Notes under the pieces: generated by a model
The model's database searches: none
What the model saw: only the letters and a program-made list of their open reading frames with translations
What the model was told of the DNA's origin: nothing
Source of the DNA: a virus
Virus record (IMG/VR): IMGVR_UViG_3300030333_003368
Coordinates: 1-22,667 of that record
DNA length: 22,667 bases
Strand: one strand, 5' to 3'
Translations under genes and position numbers: made by a program
Shown here: positions 1-19,238 of the stretch, piece after piece
Layout: the number at the start of each line of letters is the position of its first letter
Numbering within the stretch: position 1 is the stretch's first letter

Positions 1-608
1 ACCTCATTGGTGGGACTGGTGTTAGTACTGCTATCAGTGGAGATAATCTTACGATTACAAATGATTCCCCCAATGTAATACAAGAAGTCTATAGGACAGT
101 TACTGGAGATTCTGGTACAACAACTGCTGCGTTGGCAACATCATCTCTCGCTGTTTCTGGTGGTAATGGTATAACAACTGCTGTAACTTCAAACACAGTT
201 ACTGTGAATGCTGATTTATATCTCAGTGGATCTGCTTCAGAAAATAACAATATTATATACAATGGATCATCATGGGATCCTGTAACGTCACCTACAATAG
301 GATTTACATTCTCATCTAATGGTAATGCTGCATATAGAGCTGCAGGTGGTGGTGTTGATGCTTCTACTGATAATCCAACTATATTTGTTTATAGAGGTTT
401 TACATATAGATTTGATAATGCAACTGGTTCTGCACATCCTATTGCTCTAAGACAGACATCGGGTGGGTCAGCAGTAACAGAAGGTGTAAGTGGATCTCAA
501 GAATCTGTCCAATATTGGACAGTCCCAATGGATCTATCTCCTGGTACAACTTATGTTTATCAGTGCACATTACATGCAGCAATGGTAGGAAACTTAACGG
601 TAGTCTAA
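1..608 (+). CDS. Virion structural protein, C-terminal part, with cupredoxin-like domain (5' truncated)
   Basis: The reading frame is open from base 3 to the TAA at 606-608, so the gene starts before the window; a TTG at 132 is only an internal codon. The upstream part holds two related beta segments, GGTGVSTAISGDNLTIT and GGNGITTAVTSNTVTV, whose GG pairs are 50 codons apart (bases 9 and 159); such segments are common in marine phage tail and fibre proteins. The last ~100 residues have cupredoxin form: a strand-rich segment NPTIFVYRGFTYRFDN, a His in SAHPI (codon 435-437), then YQCTLHAAMVG with Cys 564-566, His 573-575 and Met 582-584. The Cys-x2-His-x2-Met spacing matches amicyanin-type copper sites. 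The next gene begins one base after the stop. A structural role is inferred from position and style; copper binding is untested. The domain may be only a cupredoxin-like fold used in a fibre or baseplate appendage. Confidence 0.75.
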   Translation, partial: LIGGTGVSTAISGDNLTITNDSPNVIQEVYRTVTGDSGTTTAALATSSLAVSGGNGITTAVTSNTVTVNADLYLSGSASENNNIIYNGSSWDPVTSPTIGFTFSSNGNAAYRAAGGGVDASTDNPTIFVYRGFTYRFDNATGSAHPIALRQTSGGSAVTEGVSGSQESVQYWTVPMDLSPGTTYVYQCTLHAAMVGNLTVV

Positions 609-609
609 T

Positions 610-2490
610 ATGGCAAGAACAGTCCCTGGTAGTGGTGCTTCTATTATCCCTGTATTCAATAGTATATTTGGGGTAAGAGATGTCTATGTCGTCAGTGGTG
701 GTGAAGGATATGATCCTGCTGATCCACCTAGACTGAGAATAGAGAATTGTGGTACTCCTATTAGAGATGCTGTACTAAGAGCAGTTATTGAAGGTGATGA
801 AGGTGTAATAACTGCTGTAGAAGTATTAGATCCAGGTGAAGGATATGACCCATTACGTCTTCAAATAGATGATGATGGTGGTGATGGATCTGCTAGAGGA
901 AATATCTTCCTTAAAGAAGATGGTGGAGTAGATTTCATCCAGATGACTGTACCTGGTGATGATTATTTTGATGCTACTGCTGAGATTAGAGGTGGTGGTG
1001 GATCAGGATCTGAGTTGATACCAGTAACAGGTTTGATTACTGGTCTTGCTATTGAACAACAAGGTAGAAACTACACAGAGGAAGACGTAAATATCATCAT
1101 TAGCGGTGGTGGTGGCCAAGGTGGTACTGGTGTTGCTGCTGTTAATCAATTCGGTGAAGTTTCTTCTATTACATTAACTAATCAAGGTGAATTCTTTGAG
1201 ACTCCTCCACTTATACAGTTAATTAAAGGTGGTGGATCTGGTGCTTCTGCTGAGGCATTTATTAACCTTGGTAAGATTACAAATATTGATTTACTTACAG
1301 GTGGTGGTGGGTATACTACACCCCCTGAGGTTATCTTTACTAGAGATACTGATCTAATTCGTGAAGCAAGAAACAGACAGTCACTAAACTCTACTGTATA
1401 TAATCTAACTGGATTAACCAGTAATGTTTCATCATCTACTGGTACTTTATTTGTCCAAACTACTGATCCTTATCCTGGTTCAGGTAAAATATTAGTTGGT
1501 AGAGAGATAATTAGATATACAGGTAAGACTGCTATATCAAATGGTGATGACTATGATGCTTTTACTGGTTGTGATAGAGGTCTTAATTTTAGATTTGACC
1601 AGAAAGTTATCTTAGATAATCTACAAGATGATCCAAATACAGGATTAACTGCATATAATTTCCAAGTAACAGATAAAGTTAGAAGGGTTATTGAATCATC
1701 TAATAACCGAGTTGCTATAGTATATGACTGGGATCCTGTTGAGAGAGCACTGTATCTAACATTCGAGGTTGATGAATTAGCATTCATCGATGGTGGTAGA
1801 TCCAATGAAAAATCCAAGATTGTAGCATTCGTGGCTGGAGTTGCTGGATCTAGTGGTACTGGTATAGAGCCTCATGTATTACTAGAGTCACAAGGTGATG
1901 ATATTGTTACCTTTACCGATCCTTTAGGTCTAATCCTCAACAGAAAGTTTGAAGATGATGATGAATTGGATGGTGTTGGTGATGGTATTATCGATTTAGT
2001 TAATACTGGCACTGAGTATGAAAACCAAATTAACCTAGATGGGGGTATAGCCGAGTCTAAATATGGTATAGAGGAAACTCTTGGTGGACAAAATACTACT
2101 CTATTCCAAGCTGGTAATCAAATATATGATGGAAATGCTACTCCTCTAGTTGCTACTATTCAATCTGCTGGTGCTTTAGGTGATGGTGATACTCATACAT
2201 CTACTGCATCTATGATAGTTGAATATATCAATTCAAACACCTTTACAAATACTGAGCAGATACAAGGTGGCACATCAAATATGACTGCTCATTCTACTGG
2301 AATAGTTTCTGGTCCTGTAATAGGTACCAATGAGAATCTTCATACATTAACTATAAAAGATCTTGTTTCCCCGAATGGTACCACATACTTGTGGACTGTG
2401 GGTGAGACAATTACTGGGCAGACATCAGGAGCAACGGCCAAGATATTCTCTATTGAATATACAACGGCTGTCAGAAATGAAGATGAATAA
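610..2490 (+). CDS. Baseplate/tail structural protein with GGxGY repeats, in T4 gene 7 position
   Basis: 626 aa, starting ATG at 610 one base after the previous stop; a weak AGGA lies about 20 bases upstream. Residues ~25-250 are six degenerate beta repeats of 36-45 aa with a core like GGxGYxxPPxV; their aromatic residues lie at codons 709, 844, 964, 1072, 1195 and 1312. Between the repeats are Gly-rich turns such as SGGGGQGGTG. Residues ~260-328 carry a module of the form ILVGREIIRYTG...GCDRG, and the C-terminus (residues ~545-620) has two GE..xG.TS.A modules. The protein directly precedes gp8, the place of T4 gp7 (wedge initiator), but I see no sequence likeness to gp7, so that equivalence is positional only. 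No signal peptide or membrane segment is visible. It is most likely a baseplate wedge or tail-associated virion protein. Confidence 0.7.
   Translation: MARTVPGSGASIIPVFNSIFGVRDVYVVSGGEGYDPADPPRLRIENCGTPIRDAVLRAVIEGDEGVITAVEVLDPGEGYDPLRLQIDDDGGDGSARGNIFLKEDGGVDFIQMTVPGDDYFDATAEIRGGGGSGSELIPVTGLITGLAIEQQGRNYTEEDVNIIISGGGGQGGTGVAAVNQFGEVSSITLTNQGEFFETPPLIQLIKGGGSGASAEAFINLGKITNIDLLTGGGGYTTPPEVIFTRDTDLIREARNRQSLNSTVYNLTGLTSNVSSSTGTLFVQTTDPYPGSGKILVGREIIRYTGKTAISNGDDYDAFTGCDRGLNFRFDQKVILDNLQDDPNTGLTAYNFQVTDKVRRVIESSNNRVAIVYDWDPVERALYLTFEVDELAFIDGGRSNEKSKIVAFVAGVAGSSGTGIEPHVLLESQGDDIVTFTDPLGLILNRKFEDDDELDGVGDGIIDLVNTGTEYENQINLDGGIAESKYGIEETLGGQNTTLFQAGNQIYDGNATPLVATIQSAGALGDGDTHTSTASMIVEYINSNTFTNTEQIQGGTSNMTAHSTGIVSGPVIGTNENLHTLTIKDLVSPNGTTYLWTVGETITGQTSGATAKIFSIEYTTAVRNEDE
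693..1350 (+). repeat. Six tandem 36-45 aa GGxGY-type coding repeats
   Basis: Six units in the 626-aa protein have aromatic anchor codons at 709, 844, 964, 1072, 1195 (Phe instead of Tyr) and 1312. The steps are 45, 40, 36, 41 and 39 codons. The typical layout is a hydrophobic strand, GGxGY, a PP or similar turn, another strand, then a Gly-rich linker. The units have diverged at the DNA level, so this is an old protein repeat rather than a recent tandem duplication. Confidence 0.8.
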
Positions 2491-11479: not shown

Positions 11480-11500
11480 TTATTATTCCTTTTGTCAAGT

Positions 11501-11770
11501 ATGTCTGAAGATAAAGATACGATTGTCCCTTTTAAGGATGGTTTAGTACCTGTCCAGGGAAGGGATGGATGGTTTAGAGACCCAGATTCCAATGCCATTG
11601 TCAACTGTAACAAAACTCAGTACGATGAATATATGGCAGCATATAACAAGCGTCGGAAGAAGGATGAAAAGTTTCAGACTTTACAAACTGACGTGGATGC
11701 ATTAAAATCAGATATATCTGACATGAAGTCATTACTATTACAACTTGTGGAGAAAAAAGATGCCAGCTGA
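11501..11770 (+). CDS. Small conserved-type phage protein with C-terminal coiled coil
   Basis: 89 aa from ATG 11501 (MSEDKDTIVPF); an in-frame TTG at 11492 would add three residues but has no better ribosome site, so ATG is preferred. The N-terminal half has GWFRDPDSNAIVNCNKTQYDEY followed by a basic patch (NKRRKKDEKF), a layout I recognise from small uncharacterised proteins of marine T4-like phages. The C-terminal third, LQTDVDALKSDISDMKSLLL, shows hydrophobic heptad spacing typical of a short coiled coil, suggesting oligomerisation. The reading frame overlaps the next gene by 11 bases, so the two are probably translated together. No function can be assigned; a structural, scaffold or assembly-factor role in tail or fibre morphogenesis is possible from its position. 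Confidence 0.7.
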   Translation: MSEDKDTIVPFKDGLVPVQGRDGWFRDPDSNAIVNCNKTQYDEYMAAYNKRRKKDEKFQTLQTDVDALKSDISDMKSLLLQLVEKKDAS

Positions 11771-11990
11771 TGTAAGCGAAACAGTAAACCAAGACGAACT
11801 ACTTGGTCAATTCAAGGAAAGGTACAACAACCTTATCAATGAGAATAATCAACTCTCTAAAAAGATTAAAGATAATGAAGCAACCGCATTGAAACTGCTA
11901 GGTGCAATTGAAACACTGGAGTATTTGAATCCAGCAGAAAAGACAGAAGAGACTGCCACTGAGGAGACTCCTGTTGCTGCGGACGCATAA
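11760..11990 (+). CDS. Small coiled-coil protein with acidic tail, directly before the giant fibre gene
   Basis: 76 aa from ATG 11760 (MPADVSETVNQ). This start is preferred over an in-frame TTG at 11745 because GGAG at 11749-11752 is well placed for it. Residues ~13-57 (LLGQFKERYNNLIN, then NQLSKKI and ALKLLGAIETLEYL) form a likely alpha-helical coiled coil, and the last ~20 residues are Glu/Thr/Ala-rich and acidic. Length, coiled coil, acidic tail and closeness to a fibre gene resemble T4 gp57A, the 79-aa chaperone needed for fibre trimer folding. I cannot show homology, so a fibre-assembly role is a hypothesis. The stop codon lies inside the late promoter box of the next gene. Confidence 0.65.
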   Translation: MPADVSETVNQDELLGQFKERYNNLINENNQLSKKIKDNEATALKLLGAIETLEYLNPAEKTEETATEETPVAADA

Positions 11991-12035: not shown

Positions 12036-15000
12036 ATGGCAAATAGAATACAATTAAGACGTGATGGTGCCCAGCAGTGGGCAAACGTCAACCCAATTCT
12101 CGCTCAAGGTGAGATTGGTATCGAAATAGATACCTCTCGACTGAAGGTAGGGGATGGTGTTACGTCTTGGAACTCTCTTAAATACGAGAGACCAATCGAA
12201 ACCGAATCAAACACTGCAAATACTCTAGTAAAACGAGACGCTGACGGTAACTTTGAAGCAGGTGCCATTACTGCATCACTTATCGGTAACAGTGCTACAG
12301 CAACAAGATTAGCAAACGCTCGACAAATTGCCTTAGGTGGTGATATGTCGGGTAGTGGTACGTTCGATGGATCCTCGAACCTAACTATCACTGCTGAATT
12401 AAACTATGTTGTTGCTCTACCTCATTATGATGCTAATGATCTAGATGCTACAGGTACATACAGTCAAGTAACAGTTGACTCTAGGGGTCGTATTGTTGAC
12501 GCAGACAACCCAACAACCTTAGCTGCGTATGGAATTGCTGACGCACAACCATTAGATACAGATCTAACATCACTTGCTAGTATGACCTCATTCGGTCTAC
12601 TTTCAAGACAGTCTGAAGGTACAATTGTATCAAGGACTATTACTGGTGGTAGTCAGAGAATTATTGTTAACAATGGTAGTGGACAATCATCCAACCCATT
12701 CATTGACCTTGCTGATACAACTGTTGTTGTTGGTACTTACAACCCTGTAGGTAACCTAGACACACCTCTTATATCTGCAACTACAGGTGATGAGACAGTT
12801 AACACAACTAACTTCACAGTAGACCGATATGGTCGTTTGACATATGCTCAGACTTCTGCTATCGCTACAGCGAAGGAAGGTACTAAGAAACCTGCATACG
12901 ACGCAGGTACAGCATATAGTAGATACGATATAATAAAGAATTCTTCTGATAAACTCTATCAGGCAATTGCTGATATCGGTGCTGGTGCTGGTGAACCAAC
13001 CCATACCGATGCATCTGATGCAGGGTCATGGAGATACTTATCAAGTGCTGTTGCACCTCAGAAAGGTATAGCATCATTTGCTCAAGAAGATTTTGATGTT
13101 ACTGCATGGTTAGACCCAGAGCAAGGTGGTCATGTTACTATTGCTCAGAGAGGTGTTGATAACCTACAACTACAAAATAATAGAGTCTCTTTTGCTGACG
13201 GAAATACAAAAGAAGACTTTGAATTAGATCAGGAGTTGACAGCAACTACTGGTTACAGAGGATTTAATTATCTAAACTATGTTAAAGTCAACGATACTTC
13301 AGGCAGTCTTCTCTTCGGTGCTAATAACACTGGTGATGCTGGTGCTGGTGAAGTTGATATTAATGTAAAGACATTATTCAGTGATCCAGATTTCGTACTT
13401 GATGGAGCACTAACACAAAATATTGAGAAGACTGGTGAGGGTAGTTTCTGGATTAAGAATACTCAGAACTCATCATCTAATCAAGTCCTTAACATCCAGA
13501 TGACCAATGCTGGTACTGGTGAGGCAAGACTTAATATTGCTGCTGAAGATGGTATTACACTTCATGCTACTGATGCCACAGGTGGTTATCAGCATGGTCG
13601 TGTATGCTTTGAAGCATTCCATACTAAGCAGAATGTATTAGCATGTGACCCTGTAGGTAATTTCATACTTGATCCTAATGATACTAATGATTCATCATCT
13701 GGTGTTGTTGAGATCTGGGGTGATCTTTTAGTACAAGGTAACACTACTACAGTTAATAGCACAACTATTACAGTAGATGATCCTATTATCACTTTAGGAG
13801 GAGACACCGCACCTTCTACAGATGACAACAAAGATCGTGGTGTAGAATTTAGATATTATGATAGTCAAGCAAGAGTCGGTTTCTTCGGATGGGACGAAAG
13901 TTATAACAATGCTAACTTGTGGGCTGACACTGGTGGGTTTAGGTTCCTCTACAATGCCACTAACTCGAATGAAGTATTTACTGGTACTGACGCTGCTCTC
14001 ATCGCTGGTAACCTCGCACTCACAACTAACACAGGATCGACCTCCACGACGACTGGGACTCTGGTAGTCACTGGTGGTGTAGGTATATCACAGAATGTCC
14101 ATGTAGGTGGTGAAGTAACCATCGCAGGTCAGACTGAGATCAATGATACAGTATTAATCAAGTCTGATAATGAAGACTTTAAGATTCAAACTGCTGCTGG
14201 TGTAGATAAGTTTACTGTAGATACTGATACAGGTAACACAGTTATAGAAGGTACAGTTGATATTCAGTTAGAGACTGAGATCACTGACAACCTTATTATT
14301 AAGGCAGATAATAAGAAGTTTGATATTCAAACTGCTGCTGGTGTCAGCGTATTCGATGTGGATACTGACAACGGTAACACACATACAGATGGTACTCTCG
14401 ATGTAGACAGTGGAGTAACATTTAATAGCACTCTGGATGTAGATGATAATACAACACTTAATGCTGAGTTAGACGTAGATGGTGATGTAGTATTCCATAA
14501 TGACTTCCTAATGGATGTCACTGGTAAGACATTTACTATTACTAATGGTAGTGCTAATAAGTTTCAAATAACAAGCACTAATGGAAATACAGACATTGAA
14601 GGTAGTCTCAATGTTGGTGGTTACAATACTTTCGAGCGTACTAATAACATCGTTGTTGATTCTACAACATCAGAATCAGCGATTACCCTTAGCACTGCTG
14701 GTAACGCTACTTATGCTGGTGGTGTTAATATCGATAAAGATGTCCGTATCGGGACTGATCTCTATGTATCAGATAGGATTGTAGTCAAGGATGCTGGTAC
14801 AGCAAGGACAAGACCTTCATTATTAAATAACGTTGATATATTATATCGTCAATATGTTGGTGCTACAGCAGCACACAATGCAGAATTTGCTAATGACCCA
14901 GATGCAAACTTAAGGGTTGCTGGTGGTGTAGGTATCGTAGCAGATCTACATGTAGGAGATGATTTCTATGTTGGTAAGGTAGCAACTAATGATAACGTAG

Positions 15001-18000
15001 AATTTTCTATCCTAGGTGAGTCTGGATACACAACCATAGGACGTGTAGGACAGGGTAATGCAACCGATGGTGCTATTGTAGTCCACGGTGATGCAACATT
15101 CAATAGAGAAGTTAATATAACAGGTAGTCTAACAACTGTAGGTAATGCAAACACTGATGTATTAACAGTCAATGCAGTATCACAATTTACTGATGATGTC
15201 ACAGTTGACGGAAGTTTAACAGTCAACACCAACGCATTAGTCGAAGGTAACCTCACAGTTAATGGTACTACAACCACAGTTAATAGTACTGTAGTTACAG
15301 TAGATGACCCAGTATTCACACTGGGTGGGGACACTGCTCCAGGCAGTAACGATGCTAAGGATCGTGGTATTGAATTCAGATACTATGACAACCAAGCACG
15401 TTTAGGATTCTTTGGTTGGGATACTTCTGCTGGTAGATATGCACTTTGGCATGCTGCAACCAATTCTTCAGAGGCATTCTCTGGATCAAGATCTGGTTTA
15501 GATGCTGGTAGCATAAAACTATTTGACACAACTAACTCAACAACACCTTCTACTGGTGCATTAATTGTAGGTGGTGGTGCTGGTGTAGGATTGAGTCTAT
15601 ATGTTGGAGAGAATTTAGACGTAGCAGATAATACTGCTATAGGTGGAAACCTTGATGTTACAGGAGACTTTGATCTAACTGATGACCTTAGAATTAATAC
15701 TTCTAAGTTTACAGTAGATGCTGGCACTGGTAACACATATGCAGAGGGCACACTACAAGTTGATGGTAACGTCACCTTAGGTAATGCAGCAGGTGATTCT
15801 CACACTGTTACAGGTGTTGTCCAGTTTAACCAAGCAATTACTTCTACAGATATTACTGCTGATCAGATTAAGATTGGTGTTGATGCTGCTAATGAGATCA
15901 GCACTACTGCTGGTAATTTAGTACTTGATTCAAATGGTGGCACAGTAAATGTCACAGACGATTTAGATGTTGACAATAACCTTAACGTTGATGGCAATGC
16001 CAAGGTTGATGGTACCCTTACAGTTGATGGGAATACTACTATCGGCAATGCTGCTGGTGACTCTCATTCTGTTACTGGTACAGTTCAATTCAACCAAGCA
16101 ATCACGTCCACAGATATCACAGCTGATTCTGTTACCATTGGCGTGGATTCTGATAGTGAAATTAGCACTACTACTGGGAACAATCTCATACTCGACTCCG
16201 CAACTGGAGAAACTCAAGTCGATGATAACCTCACAGTCACTGGCACCTTAGATGTAAATGGTAATACCACAATTGGTAATGCCTCTGGTGATTCTCATAC
16301 AGTTAATGGTACAGTAACCTTTAATCAGGCAATTACATCCACTGACATCACTGCTGACAACGTGCAGATTGGTGTATCAGGTGCATCTGAAATTGATACC
16401 TCTTCTGGTAGTTTAACTATTGACTCTGCTACTGGTGAGACAGTTGTAGATGATAACCTAACTGTAAATGGCACAACAGACATTGATGGTTTAACCACCA
16501 TTACTGACTCACTAACAGTTAAGGCAGATAATAAGTTAGTTTCTATTCAGAATGCTTCAGGTCTAACTAAGTTTGAAATTGATACCGATAACGGTAATAC
16601 AGATATACAGGGCACTGTAAACATAGAGGGTGCTACAACTATTGATGACACTCTTAATGTCACACAGGGAGTTGATTTAGATTCAACATTGAATGTAGAT
16701 GGTGGAGCAACATTCCAAGATGATGTCACCATTAATGCTGACAATAAAGAGTTTAAGGTACAAAATAATTCTAATGTAACCAAGTTTACTATTGACACAG
16801 ACAATGGTAATACTGATATTCAAGGCACATTAGATGTAAATGGAGCAACTAATGTTACCAATACTGTTGGTATCACTGGTGTTACATCTATCACCAATAA
16901 TACTAACCCTGCTAACCTAATTGCTACTGCTGCTCTGAATGTAACAGGTGGTGCAGTAATTAATAAGGATGTCTTCTTGGGTGAAGACTTCTATATGGGT
17001 CCAAACAATGCCCCAACAGTCTCTATAGTTGGTGCATCTGGTAACACTTCTATTACAGGAACACTTAACGTTACCAATACAACGACTCTAGGCACTGCTG
17101 ATATAGGAACACTTAACCTATCCAACAACGCTAATATTGACGGATCAATCATAGTCAATACTGACAAGTTTATTGTTGCAGGTCTTACAGGTAACACTGA
17201 TATCTTTGGTACACTTGATGTTGGTGGTGCAACTGTTATAGATGATACCCTTAATGTTACACAGGGTGTTGACTTTGATAGCACATTAAATGTAGATGGT
17301 AACTCCACATTCAGTGGCACTATTACACAAAATAGCACTTCATTATTCAAGGATAATATAGTCCTACGTGGTGCATCTAAGACTCTAATATTACAAAATG
17401 GATCAAGCCAAGATAAGATCACTCTTAATTCAACTAGTGGCAACATTACTGCTAGTGGTACTGCTGACGTAGGTGCTCTTGACGTAACTAATAACTCCAC
17501 CATCGGTGGCACACTTGGTGTAACAGGACAGATCACTGGTAATGTAACTGGTGACCTAACAGGTAATGCTGACACAGCATCTCTAGTTAATGTAACTGAG
17601 ACTCCTACATCAAACTTGACATACTATCCATGTTTTGTTTCTGCTAACACAGGTAACACTGAAATCAGGACAGACTCTGGACAGTTACAATACAATCCAT
17701 TTGAAAACAGACTTACTGTTACTAACTTCAAATCAACTACTGACTTTGAGGTTGCAGGTAACTTAAACATTACTGGTAACATCACATATACTCAGTCACA
17801 GGTTGGTAGTATTGCTAACCATGATACTGATGATTTGGTAGAAGGGTCATCTAACAAGTATTTCACTAACGAGAGAGTTGATGATAGAGTTAACAACCTA
17901 ATCAACGCTGGCACAGGCATATCTGCAACTTATGATGATGCAGGTAATATGCTCACCTTAAGTGCAGTCCAGTCAGATCTTAATACTGACAACTTCACTG

Positions 18001-19238
18001 AAGGATCTACCAACCTCTTCACCACTGCAGCTAGAACGAGGACTCACTTCACGTATGGTACTGGTGTTGAGTTGTCGGGTGGTGGAGAACTTTCTGTTAC
18101 TCAGGCAGACATTAATACTGATAACGTAACTGAAGGTTCTACTAATCTCTTTATTACTGCTGCAAGGACACGTGGACATGTGTCTGCTAGTGGAGATCTA
18201 TCATATAATGCTTCTACTGGTGTATTCTCATATACAATCCCAACAACTATCGCATCTCTATCCAACCATGATACAGATGACGTAGCAGAAGGATCAACCA
18301 ACAAGTATTATACTGATGAGAGAGTAGATGACAGATTGAATGCTGTTATCATCGCTGGTACTGGTGTTACTAAGGTATATGACGATGGTGCTAATACATA
18401 CACACTATCTGTTACTCAGGCAGACGTTAATACCGACACAATAACTGAGGGATCAACAAATCTCTTTACTACTGCTGCCAGAACAAGGACACACTTTACA
18501 TATGGCACAGGTATTTCACATTCAGGTGGCACACTTTCTGTTACTCAGTCTGACATCGACACCGATAACATCACAGAAGGATCCACAAATCTATTTACAA
18601 CTGCTGCTCGCACTAGAGGACACATCTCTGTTAGCGGAGACCTAGCATACAACAGTAGCACAGGTGTTATCTCCTTTACTGAGAGAACTGATGCTGAGGT
18701 GAATACTCTTGCAGATGCAAGAATTGCTGCTGCTGATACTGACGATCTATCTGAAGGATCAACTAATCTATACTTCACTAACGCTCGTGCTGATGCTCGT
18801 GTAACAGCAGGTATAACTGGAAAACTTGATGCCTCTGCTGTTAGTGCTTTCGGTCTAACATTGGTTGATGATGCAGACGCTGCTGCTGCCAGATCCACAT
18901 TAGGATTAGGCACTGCTGCTGTTGCTGCAACTGGTGACTTCGCTACTGCTGCACAAGGTACAACTGCTGACAACGCACTCGCTGCGTCTGCTGTAAGCAC
19001 CTTCGGTGGCACTCTGATTGATGACGCAGACGCTGCTGCTGCAAGGACAACCCTTGGACTTGGATCTGCTGCTGTCGCTGCATCTACTGCATTTGCAACT
19101 GCTGCACAAGGTACACAGGCAACCACCAACGATAGTGATATCGATGATATCTATACTGAATTGAATGCTATTGGTAATGATGCTTCTATAACAACCGTCG
19201 CACAACTTAAGGCAGCACTAGCCGCTCTCGCAAGATAA
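12036..19238 (+). CDS. Giant repetitive tail fibre-like protein with Mtd_N-type N-terminus
   Basis: 2400 aa. Residues 1-55 (RIQLRRDGAQQWANVNPILA, GEIGIEIDTSRLKVGDGVTSW) match the Mtd_N-type N-terminal domain of phage receptor-binding proteins, likely the virion-attachment end. Residues ~100-185 hold fibre motifs GDMSGSGTFDGSSNLTI and YGIADAQPLDTDL. Residues ~286-335 (YDAGTAYSRYDIIKN...KLYQAI...GSWRYL) resemble a CBM5/12 carbohydrate-binding module. Residues ~560-1900 are beta-rich repeats of LDVDGNTTI/DNGNTDIQGTLDV type, probably a long fibrous trimer. Residues ~1928-2225 are two 149-aa copies built around DTDDL.EGS.N.YFT motifs, and the end carries two 51-aa DDADAAAARTTLGLG copies. No enzyme motif, membrane segment or reverse transcriptase partner is seen. 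Position corresponds to T4 12/wac; it could be a long fibre, short fibre or whisker. gp13 starts four bases after the stop. Confidence 0.82.
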   Translation: MANRIQLRRDGAQQWANVNPILAQGEIGIEIDTSRLKVGDGVTSWNSLKYERPIETESNTANTLVKRDADGNFEAGAITASLIGNSATATRLANARQIALGGDMSGSGTFDGSSNLTITAELNYVVALPHYDANDLDATGTYSQVTVDSRGRIVDADNPTTLAAYGIADAQPLDTDLTSLASMTSFGLLSRQSEGTIVSRTITGGSQRIIVNNGSGQSSNPFIDLADTTVVVGTYNPVGNLDTPLISATTGDETVNTTNFTVDRYGRLTYAQTSAIATAKEGTKKPAYDAGTAYSRYDIIKNSSDKLYQAIADIGAGAGEPTHTDASDAGSWRYLSSAVAPQKGIASFAQEDFDVTAWLDPEQGGHVTIAQRGVDNLQLQNNRVSFADGNTKEDFELDQELTATTGYRGFNYLNYVKVNDTSGSLLFGANNTGDAGAGEVDINVKTLFSDPDFVLDGALTQNIEKTGEGSFWIKNTQNSSSNQVLNIQMTNAGTGEARLNIAAEDGITLHATDATGGYQHGRVCFEAFHTKQNVLACDPVGNFILDPNDTNDSSSGVVEIWGDLLVQGNTTTVNSTTITVDDPIITLGGDTAPSTDDNKDRGVEFRYYDSQARVGFFGWDESYNNANLWADTGGFRFLYNATNSNEVFTGTDAALIAGNLALTTNTGSTSTTTGTLVVTGGVGISQNVHVGGEVTIAGQTEINDTVLIKSDNEDFKIQTAAGVDKFTVDTDTGNTVIEGTVDIQLETEITDNLIIKADNKKFDIQTAAGVSVFDVDTDNGNTHTDGTLDVDSGVTFNSTLDVDDNTTLNAELDVDGDVVFHNDFLMDVTGKTFTITNGSANKFQITSTNGNTDIEGSLNVGGYNTFERTNNIVVDSTTSESAITLSTAGNATYAGGVNIDKDVRIGTDLYVSDRIVVKDAGTARTRPSLLNNVDILYRQYVGATAAHNAEFANDPDANLRVAGGVGIVADLHVGDDFYVGKVATNDNVEFSILGESGYTTIGRVGQGNATDGAIVVHGDATFNREVNITGSLTTVGNANTDVLTVNAVSQFTDDVTVDGSLTVNTNALVEGNLTVNGTTTTVNSTVVTVDDPVFTLGGDTAPGSNDAKDRGIEFRYYDNQARLGFFGWDTSAGRYALWHAATNSSEAFSGSRSGLDAGSIKLFDTTNSTTPSTGALIVGGGAGVGLSLYVGENLDVADNTAIGGNLDVTGDFDLTDDLRINTSKFTVDAGTGNTYAEGTLQVDGNVTLGNAAGDSHTVTGVVQFNQAITSTDITADQIKIGVDAANEISTTAGNLVLDSNGGTVNVTDDLDVDNNLNVDGNAKVDGTLTVDGNTTIGNAAGDSHSVTGTVQFNQAITSTDITADSVTIGVDSDSEISTTTGNNLILDSATGETQVDDNLTVTGTLDVNGNTTIGNASGDSHTVNGTVTFNQAITSTDITADNVQIGVSGASEIDTSSGSLTIDSATGETVVDDNLTVNGTTDIDGLTTITDSLTVKADNKLVSIQNASGLTKFEIDTDNGNTDIQGTVNIEGATTIDDTLNVTQGVDLDSTLNVDGGATFQDDVTINADNKEFKVQNNSNVTKFTIDTDNGNTDIQGTLDVNGATNVTNTVGITGVTSITNNTNPANLIATAALNVTGGAVINKDVFLGEDFYMGPNNAPTVSIVGASGNTSITGTLNVTNTTTLGTADIGTLNLSNNANIDGSIIVNTDKFIVAGLTGNTDIFGTLDVGGATVIDDTLNVTQGVDFDSTLNVDGNSTFSGTITQNSTSLFKDNIVLRGASKTLILQNGSSQDKITLNSTSGNITASGTADVGALDVTNNSTIGGTLGVTGQITGNVTGDLTGNADTASLVNVTETPTSNLTYYPCFVSANTGNTEIRTDSGQLQYNPFENRLTVTNFKSTTDFEVAGNLNITGNITYTQSQVGSIANHDTDDLVEGSSNKYFTNERVDDRVNNLINAGTGISATYDDAGNMLTLSAVQSDLNTDNFTEGSTNLFTTAARTRTHFTYGTGVELSGGGELSVTQADINTDNVTEGSTNLFITAARTRGHVSASGDLSYNASTGVFSYTIPTTIASLSNHDTDDVAEGSTNKYYTDERVDDRLNAVIIAGTGVTKVYDDGANTYTLSVTQADVNTDTITEGSTNLFTTAARTRTHFTYGTGISHSGGTLSVTQSDIDTDNITEGSTNLFTTAARTRGHISVSGDLAYNSSTGVISFTERTDAEVNTLADARIAAADTDDLSEGSTNLYFTNARADARVTAGITGKLDASAVSAFGLTLVDDADAAAARSTLGLGTAAVAATGDFATAAQGTTADNALAASAVSTFGGTLIDDADAAAARTTLGLGSAAVAASTAFATAAQGTQATTNDSDIDDIYTELNAIGNDASITTVAQLKAALAALAR
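12891..13040 (+). other. Carbohydrate-binding-module-like segment inside the fibre gene
   Basis: Residues ~286-335 read PAYDAGTAYSRYDIIKN, then KLYQAI, GEPTHTDA and GSWRYL. The order aromatic, Ala-Gly, Tyr, then a strand with D-I-I/V, then Y.A, a Pro loop and a terminal Trp is the pattern of CBM5/12-type modules, which appear in many phage fibre proteins. Binding to host surface glycan would fit but is inferred. Confidence 0.4.
13729..14110 (+). repeat. Fibre module VTVDDP-GGDTAP-FGWD, copy 1
   Basis: Protein motifs in order: GNTTTVNSTTITVDDPIITL, GGDTAPSTDDNKDRGVEFRY, GFFGWD, then TTTGTLVVTGGVGISQNV. The same series recurs about 1.5 kb downstream (15238-15630) with clear residue identity but many substitutions. 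It encodes a folded module within the fibre's beta-repeat shaft. Confidence 0.8.
15238..15630 (+). repeat. Fibre module VTVDDP-GGDTAP-FGWD, copy 2
   Basis: Second copy of the module at 13729-14110: GTTTTVNSTVVTVDDPVFTL, GGDTAPGSNDAKDRGIEFRY, GFFGWD, then PSTGALIVGGGAGVGLSLYV. After FGWD the copies differ most (ESYNNANLWADT against TSAGRYALWHAAT), so that loop is the variable part of the module. Confidence 0.8.
15759..16470 (+). repeat. Three tandem fibre repeats (GNAAGDSHTVTG...FNQAITSTDITAD)
   Basis: The GNA(A/S)GDSH motif begins at 15780, 16044 and 16275, giving steps of 88 and 77 codons. Each unit contains VQFNQAITSTDITAD or close to it, then IGV....EI.T..G.L.LDS. The 11-codon difference comes from extra LDVDNNLNVDGNAKV-type residues in the first unit. 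Identity is high at the protein level, suggesting fairly recent unit duplication in the shaft. Confidence 0.85.
17817..18700 (+). repeat. Two tandem 149-aa C-terminal fibre repeats (NHDTDD...EGSTN)
   Basis: NHDTDD starts at 17817 and again at 18264, exactly 447 bases (149 codons) apart. Each copy carries EGS.NKY.T(N/D)ERVDDR, AGTG, then two EGSTNLF.TAARTR motifs and a GDL.YN(A/S)STGV.S end. A shorter AADTDDLSEGSTNLYFTNAR motif follows copy 2 at about 18730, so the family has additional partial units. The EGSTN-YFT pattern is common in marine phage fibres. Confidence 0.85.
18843..19120 (+). repeat. Two 51-aa distal fibre repeats (DDADAAAAR.TLGLG)
   Basis: S(A/T)FG.TL(V/I)DDADAAAAR(S/T)TLGLG(T/S)AAVAA begins at 18843 and 18996, a step of 153 bases (51 codons), each followed by FATAAQGT. 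The DAAAARTTLGLG motif is widespread in phage fibres. The chain then ends in a short likely helical segment IDDIYTELNAIG...AALAALAR. Confidence 0.85.

Follow-up and report, generated by a model that had tools for sequence, protein, structure and literature searches.

The left edge of the window (the whole stretch of DNA analysed, 22,667 nucleotides) encodes the end of a T4 gp9/gp10-type baseplate protein of a T4-like marine cyanophage. Judged by its predicted structure, the last domain of this protein is a cupredoxin, with the Greek-key beta-sandwich fold. In its relatives, the ligands of a type 1-style site were kept or lost together, which suggests that the virus particles carry a bound metal, and this metal is probably copper. 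Metal binding by the domain is likely; the identity of the metal as copper and its role are unproven.

The known cupredoxins serve as electron carriers or as enzyme domains. What is new in the domain described here is its setting; the fold itself is known. The literature searched, which covered few subscription journals, yielded no account of a phage baseplate with a cupredoxin domain. If widespread marine T4-like phages do have a conserved, apparently metal-competent cupredoxin in their baseplates, the fold gains a new setting, and metal content becomes something that can be tested in studies of phage structure and host recognition. Such a domain would also give a function to proteins that are annotated only as structural or hypothetical.

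Carrier protein and predicted fold

The features at the left end of the window are listed in Table 1. The frame of the gp9/gp10-type protein runs open past the left edge and ends at the stop codon 606-608, and the 5′ end of the protein lies outside the window. The PHROGs name for phrog_677 is baseplate wedge tail fibre protein connector. A complete homologue at locus L001 has 492 aa and is 88% identical to the window in the cupredoxin domain. The N-terminus of this homologue, the part that is missing from the window copy, matched T4_gp9_10_N (PF07880, E 3.8e-9). This match and phrog_677 bore out the claim of the sequence-only reading that the domain belongs to a virion protein. In the records examined from T4-like phages of other hosts, the N-terminal match sits at the starts of gp10-type genes, whereas cyanophage records mostly annotate the carrier as gp9; gp9/gp10-type is therefore the safe name. 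The nearest isolates were phages of Prochlorococcus and Synechococcus, with P-TIM40 first (65% identity in the domain).

Table 1. Positions of the carrier protein, its C-terminal domain, the proposed ligands and the next gene in the window
Feature	Position	Strand	Basis or remark
C-terminal 201 residues of T4 gp9/gp10-type baseplate wedge / tail-fibre connector protein	3..608	+	phrog_677, E 3.6e-50
Predicted cupredoxin domain, 107 aa, C-terminal domain of the protein	285..605	+	AlphaFold2, Foldseek, VIA, profile homology
Putative His ligand 1 (SAHPI), equivalent of amicyanin H53	435..437	+	Invariant in A1 and A2; amicyanin alignment
Putative Cys ligand, equivalent of amicyanin C92	564..566	+	Sole Cys of the 201 residues; conservation; amicyanin alignment
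Putative His ligand 2, equivalent of amicyanin H95	573..575	+	Conservation; amicyanin alignment
Putative axial Met ligand, equivalent of amicyanin M98	582..584	+	Gln in 31/233 distinct copies elsewhere
Next gene, baseplate wedge subunit-like protein	610..2490	+	phrog_22827 and phrog_708 (767-1246 of 1383)

AlphaFold2, run on the domain with 28 sequences, gave a nine-stranded model (pLDDT 95.6, pTM 0.87). The C-x2-H-x2-M loop of this model sits between strands 89-94 and 101-106, and His51 is part of the loop that follows strand 40-45. The sequence-only reading had started the domain at 360. This was too late by about 75 bases: the first two strands of the model, at residues 5-12 and 16-21, precede that point, and the real start is at about 285-297. 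The model of the full-length homologue showed a well-predicted C-terminal domain behind a low-confidence repeat region. It was poor outside the C-terminal domain (pLDDT 60.1), so no trimer geometry is claimed from it.

The Foldseek search against the PDB returned cupredoxin-fold chains throughout the top 50 listed, nearly all of them copper proteins, with a best E of 6.5e-5. The matches listed included three-domain CuNIR, amicyanin, rusticyanin and plastocyanin. One factor VIII chain was also among them; the A domains of factor VIII have the cupredoxin fold too. The PDB matches listed by VIA-align were likewise all cupredoxin-fold chains. The best of them was 6tfd_A, domain I of CuNIR (Z 10.6, rmsd of 2.3 A over 92 aligned residues at 25% identity), followed by rusticyanin and CuNIR at Z of about 8-9. 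Domain I of the Hyphomicrobium three-domain CuNIR (2dv6, 6tfd) is thus the closest solved fold, but it is fused in a nitrite reductase enzyme and has a longer Cys-His-Met loop. Among viral models, the best matches were cyanophage gp9-type proteins, proximal tail fibres, S8-peptidase proteins and YHYH proteins, and giant-virus beta-sandwich proteins matched more weakly.

Profile A1, which was built from 28 close relatives and centred on the window, ranked amicyanins first in the PDB with an E of only 0.014. Profile A3 was built from 44 diverged phage copies, window included, that are 20-58% identical to the window. It matched CuNIR at 2.5e-6, three-domain CuNIR at 7.1e-6 and plastocyanin at 2.3e-5, and 60/60 PDB sequences listed were cupredoxins. 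Structure prediction, fold search and this profile-sequence homology together upheld the cupredoxin fold that had been proposed from the letters alone. The window domain itself scored 13.8-15.1 bits against Copper-bind (PF00127), under the 21.2-bit cut-off, and is not filed as a member of that family. A relative with an S8-peptidase domain (L176) passed the Copper-bind cut-off (34.9 bits) and the Cupredoxin_1 cut-off.

The capture of a host plastocyanin as a domain is not favoured, since CuNIR and plastocyanins of many sources score alike (no tree was made). Two scans of genome contigs, which detect close relatives only, gave no cellular relatives. The frame L271:757-1122 matched PF25489 (At5g54830-like domain, 1.3e-6) across its cupredoxin copy, and the plant-derived name of this match is a hint of eukaryotic relatives of the module.

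Ligand residues and their joint retention

The reading frame and the four ligand codons proved to be as first claimed, in the strings SAHPI and YQCTLHAAMVG, and the C-x2-H-x2-M spacing was confirmed on the PDB amicyanin sequence. The four residues aligned with the amicyanin ligands (Table 1), which supports a complete ligand set. Amicyanin (PDB 1aac/1sfd) shares the cupredoxin fold, the aligned ligands and their spacing with the phage domain, but it is a small electron carrier with Asn after the first His, is about 21-28% identical and is not a virion domain. The likeness is one of site and fold only, and no membership is claimed.

The sole Cys and the sole two His of the 201 residues all belong to the site. 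In the A2 alignment (alignments reach down to 20-25% identity), H51, C94, H97 and M100 were among the invariant columns. H48, C91 and H94 were invariant in the 44 sequences of A3. Part of the invariance in A3 reflects the choice of HCHM and HCHQ copies for that alignment; no such choice was made for A2. The ligand codons varied synonymously among 80 distinct gp9-type domains: CAC 62/CAT 18, TGC 74/TGT 6 and CAT 60/CAC 20 for His, Cys and His. A chance motif was rejected on conservation and fold.

The residue after the first His is Pro in the window and in about 87% (weighted) of the family. Asn or Ser at this place is usual, not universal, in small blue copper proteins, and is absent from the window. 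Type 1 sites of multicopper oxidases do have His-Pro. Without absorption data, the window domain is described as a cupredoxin whose ligand set is type 1-style and not as a proven blue copper protein.

An iterated profile search over all fetched loci gave 375 domains, of which 244 were distinct (about 43 effective at 62% identity). Ligands were counted in the 233 distinct copies that had all three His, Cys and His columns present. His-Cys-His was kept in 224 of these: 189 HCHM, 31 HCHQ, 1 HCHE, 2 HCHG and 1 with a truncated end. The Met of the two HCHG copies is displaced by one residue (CTVHGNGM). The site was lost in the other 9 (CNSS 4, ANF- 2, FSSA 1, QSTY 1, HSDV 1). Degenerate copies with the ligand set gone and the domain still readable were seen in L293, L209, L196 and L312, and those of L293 and L196 share their protein with other copies.

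The sequence-only reading would have been refuted by homologues that lose one ligand freely and keep the domain. This case was looked for and was absent: none of the 233 distinct copies had lost exactly one of His-Cys-His, and losses in the three columns came together. Among 42 representatives, 38 kept all three, three lineages lost all three and one lost two. Shuffling the losses between columns gave a permutation p of about 1e-5 for joint loss. The test assumes independent representatives, an assumption that holds only roughly. The sample also carries a selection bias, as part of the loci was fetched with CxxH peptides. Copies containing another search peptide, counted alone, comprised 118 HCHM, 8 HCHQ, 2 HCHG, 1 HCHE, 1 QSTY and 1 whose end is truncated. 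The profile is also biased towards intact copies, though this bias would conceal triple losses more than single ones. As far as aligned sequences can tell, this joint behaviour is that of a metal site kept or abandoned as a unit.

The all-or-none pattern speaks more for metal binding than for a fold conserved merely for its shape. In the latter case, the cupredoxin would be a beta-sandwich spacer, and His-Cys-His would help apo folding or packing. Beta-sandwich decorations are common in phages, the cytosol is reducing and low in free copper during assembly, and several ligand-less copies still read as domains. These few copies, which keep the domain after loss of the site, indicate that the fold can be useful without metal. 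However, a packing role would permit the single substitutions that were not seen, and the sole frequent axial change was to Gln, a known natural copper ligand. We regard a role in shape only as quite improbable. Axial Gln occurs in natural type 1 copper sites, as in stellacyanin-type cupredoxins. These share the residue with the main axial variant of the phage copies, but they are plant phytocyanins, and the copy of the window has Met.

Possible roles of the site

We hold with fair confidence that the type 1-style mononuclear site of the baseplate cupredoxin binds one copper, and that the domain serves as a rigid contact module. The analysis itself shows the predicted fold, the homology to cupredoxins, the identity of the ligands and the joint conservation of His-Cys-His; the copper, its loading time, the trimer and the role are inferred. 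Each subunit would bind one copper ion, which would probably be acquired after lysis, given the high affinity of such sites. With the metal in place, the Cys-His-Met loop would be held fast against the loop that bears the His. The locked domain may then act as a rigid module for contact, placed at the end of a presumed trimeric, fibre-like connector, where it would meet the tail fibre or the host surface. The inferred role is that of a stabilising or adhesive tip, not electron transfer. Two points count against copper: the phage is assembled in a cytosol poor in free copper, and Zn, Ag or Hg can also occupy a type 1 site. The copper-site reading is also weakened by the Pro after the first His together with the sub-cut-off Copper-bind score of the window, and by the few copies that keep the domain without the site.

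A redox-active copper site could instead exchange electrons at the cell surface or sense redox, so that fibre deployment or adsorption would follow the redox or light state of the host. The ligand set matches that of electron-transfer cupredoxins, and the phage copies show axial Met/Gln variation, a change that is a known way to tune the potential. Some cyanophages also show light-dependent adsorption. However, no redox partner domain was found in the carrier proteins, which are adhesin-like, protease-like or structural and not oxidoreductases, and the module recurs at the usual places of Ig-like and lectin-like domains. A redox role is quite unlikely in our view. A wider speculation, which we consider doubtful without setting it aside, is that marine T4-like cyanophages have redox-capable virion copper sites in a mobile, Met/Gln-tuned module that has spread among proteins of the baseplate, of fibres and of protease-like and adhesin-like kinds. 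In that case, adsorption or the triggering of the tail would hinge on copper or redox state, and the particles would form a pool of copper ligands in the ocean.

Iron-binding HxH sites have been described in tail-fibre proteins (T4 gp37 and others), with a Trojan Horse hypothesis and possible marine relevance (PMC11705849). These fibres and the domain described here both have metal-binding residues in the distal part of the tail, but fold, metal and ligands differ. A baseplate cupredoxin would add a copper counterpart to this iron idea. That a host outer-membrane metal uptake system recognises the captured copper, as proposed for tail-fibre iron, is very improbable: one copy does belong to a putative adhesin whose N-terminal domain is Mtd, but there is no receptor evidence, and copper in a type 1 site is tightly bound and buried.

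Distribution, carriers and neighbouring genes

The domain was matched at E 0.01 or better by 313 phage records, every one of them cyanophage or marine by name. All of the cyanophage records tested (8/8) were positive, with 1-5 copies each and 21 in total, in open frames of about 400 to 4,400 residues. With these eight records as positive control, no cupredoxin match was obtained at E 0.01 in T4, KVP40, pelagiphage HTVC008M, ValKK3, EcS1 and an Acinetobacter phage. T4 gp9/gp10 and the complete homologues of the carrier thus share the T4_gp9_10_N domain but not the cupredoxin. Cyanophages also encode PetE, a plastocyanin auxiliary gene product (PMC3037559). PetE is likewise a cupredoxin, but it is a free small photosynthetic electron carrier and not a domain of a baseplate protein.

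The module was found in baseplate, fibre, subtilase-like and putative adhesin proteins. Its carriers include S8-peptidase proteins, a collagen-like protein of P-SSM5 and a protein with an SU10 adaptor domain. A second, Gln-type copy is present in some gp9-type proteins (L014, L027, L030). A Peptidase_S8 (subtilase) domain with one or more cupredoxin domains was seen at L162:3210-5255, L176:5-2833, L214:1010-2974 and L159:2913-8408. The L162 protein is phrog_9158, and the subtilase-cupredoxin proteins in annotated cyanophage records are labelled hypothetical.

A YHYH-like gene lay immediately upstream of the gp9-type gene in 122/122 loci with enough upstream DNA, and mostly 27-29 bases before its start. 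In L001 this gene is 230-1822, and the P-TIM40 copy matched PF14240 at 2.5e-37. The left edge of the window hides the position of the YHYH gene. YHYH has been predicted as a Zn-dependent hydrolase (PMC7824862). In L123 and L125, a Gln-type cupredoxin is inserted in the upstream YHYH protein. In S-SSM4 and ACG-2014d, it is the downstream gene that bears a YHYH-like region and a cupredoxin; the downstream product of the window lacks this region and this domain of its longer relatives (L156/L157).

Further along the window, short overlapping frames with TTG starts (11492-11770 and 11745-11990) lie between genes of 2458 and 2400 residues, and their start sites are uncertain. The 2400-residue gene (12036-19238) encodes a fibre-like protein with many near-repeats, for example VDGNTTIGNAAGDSHSVTG.
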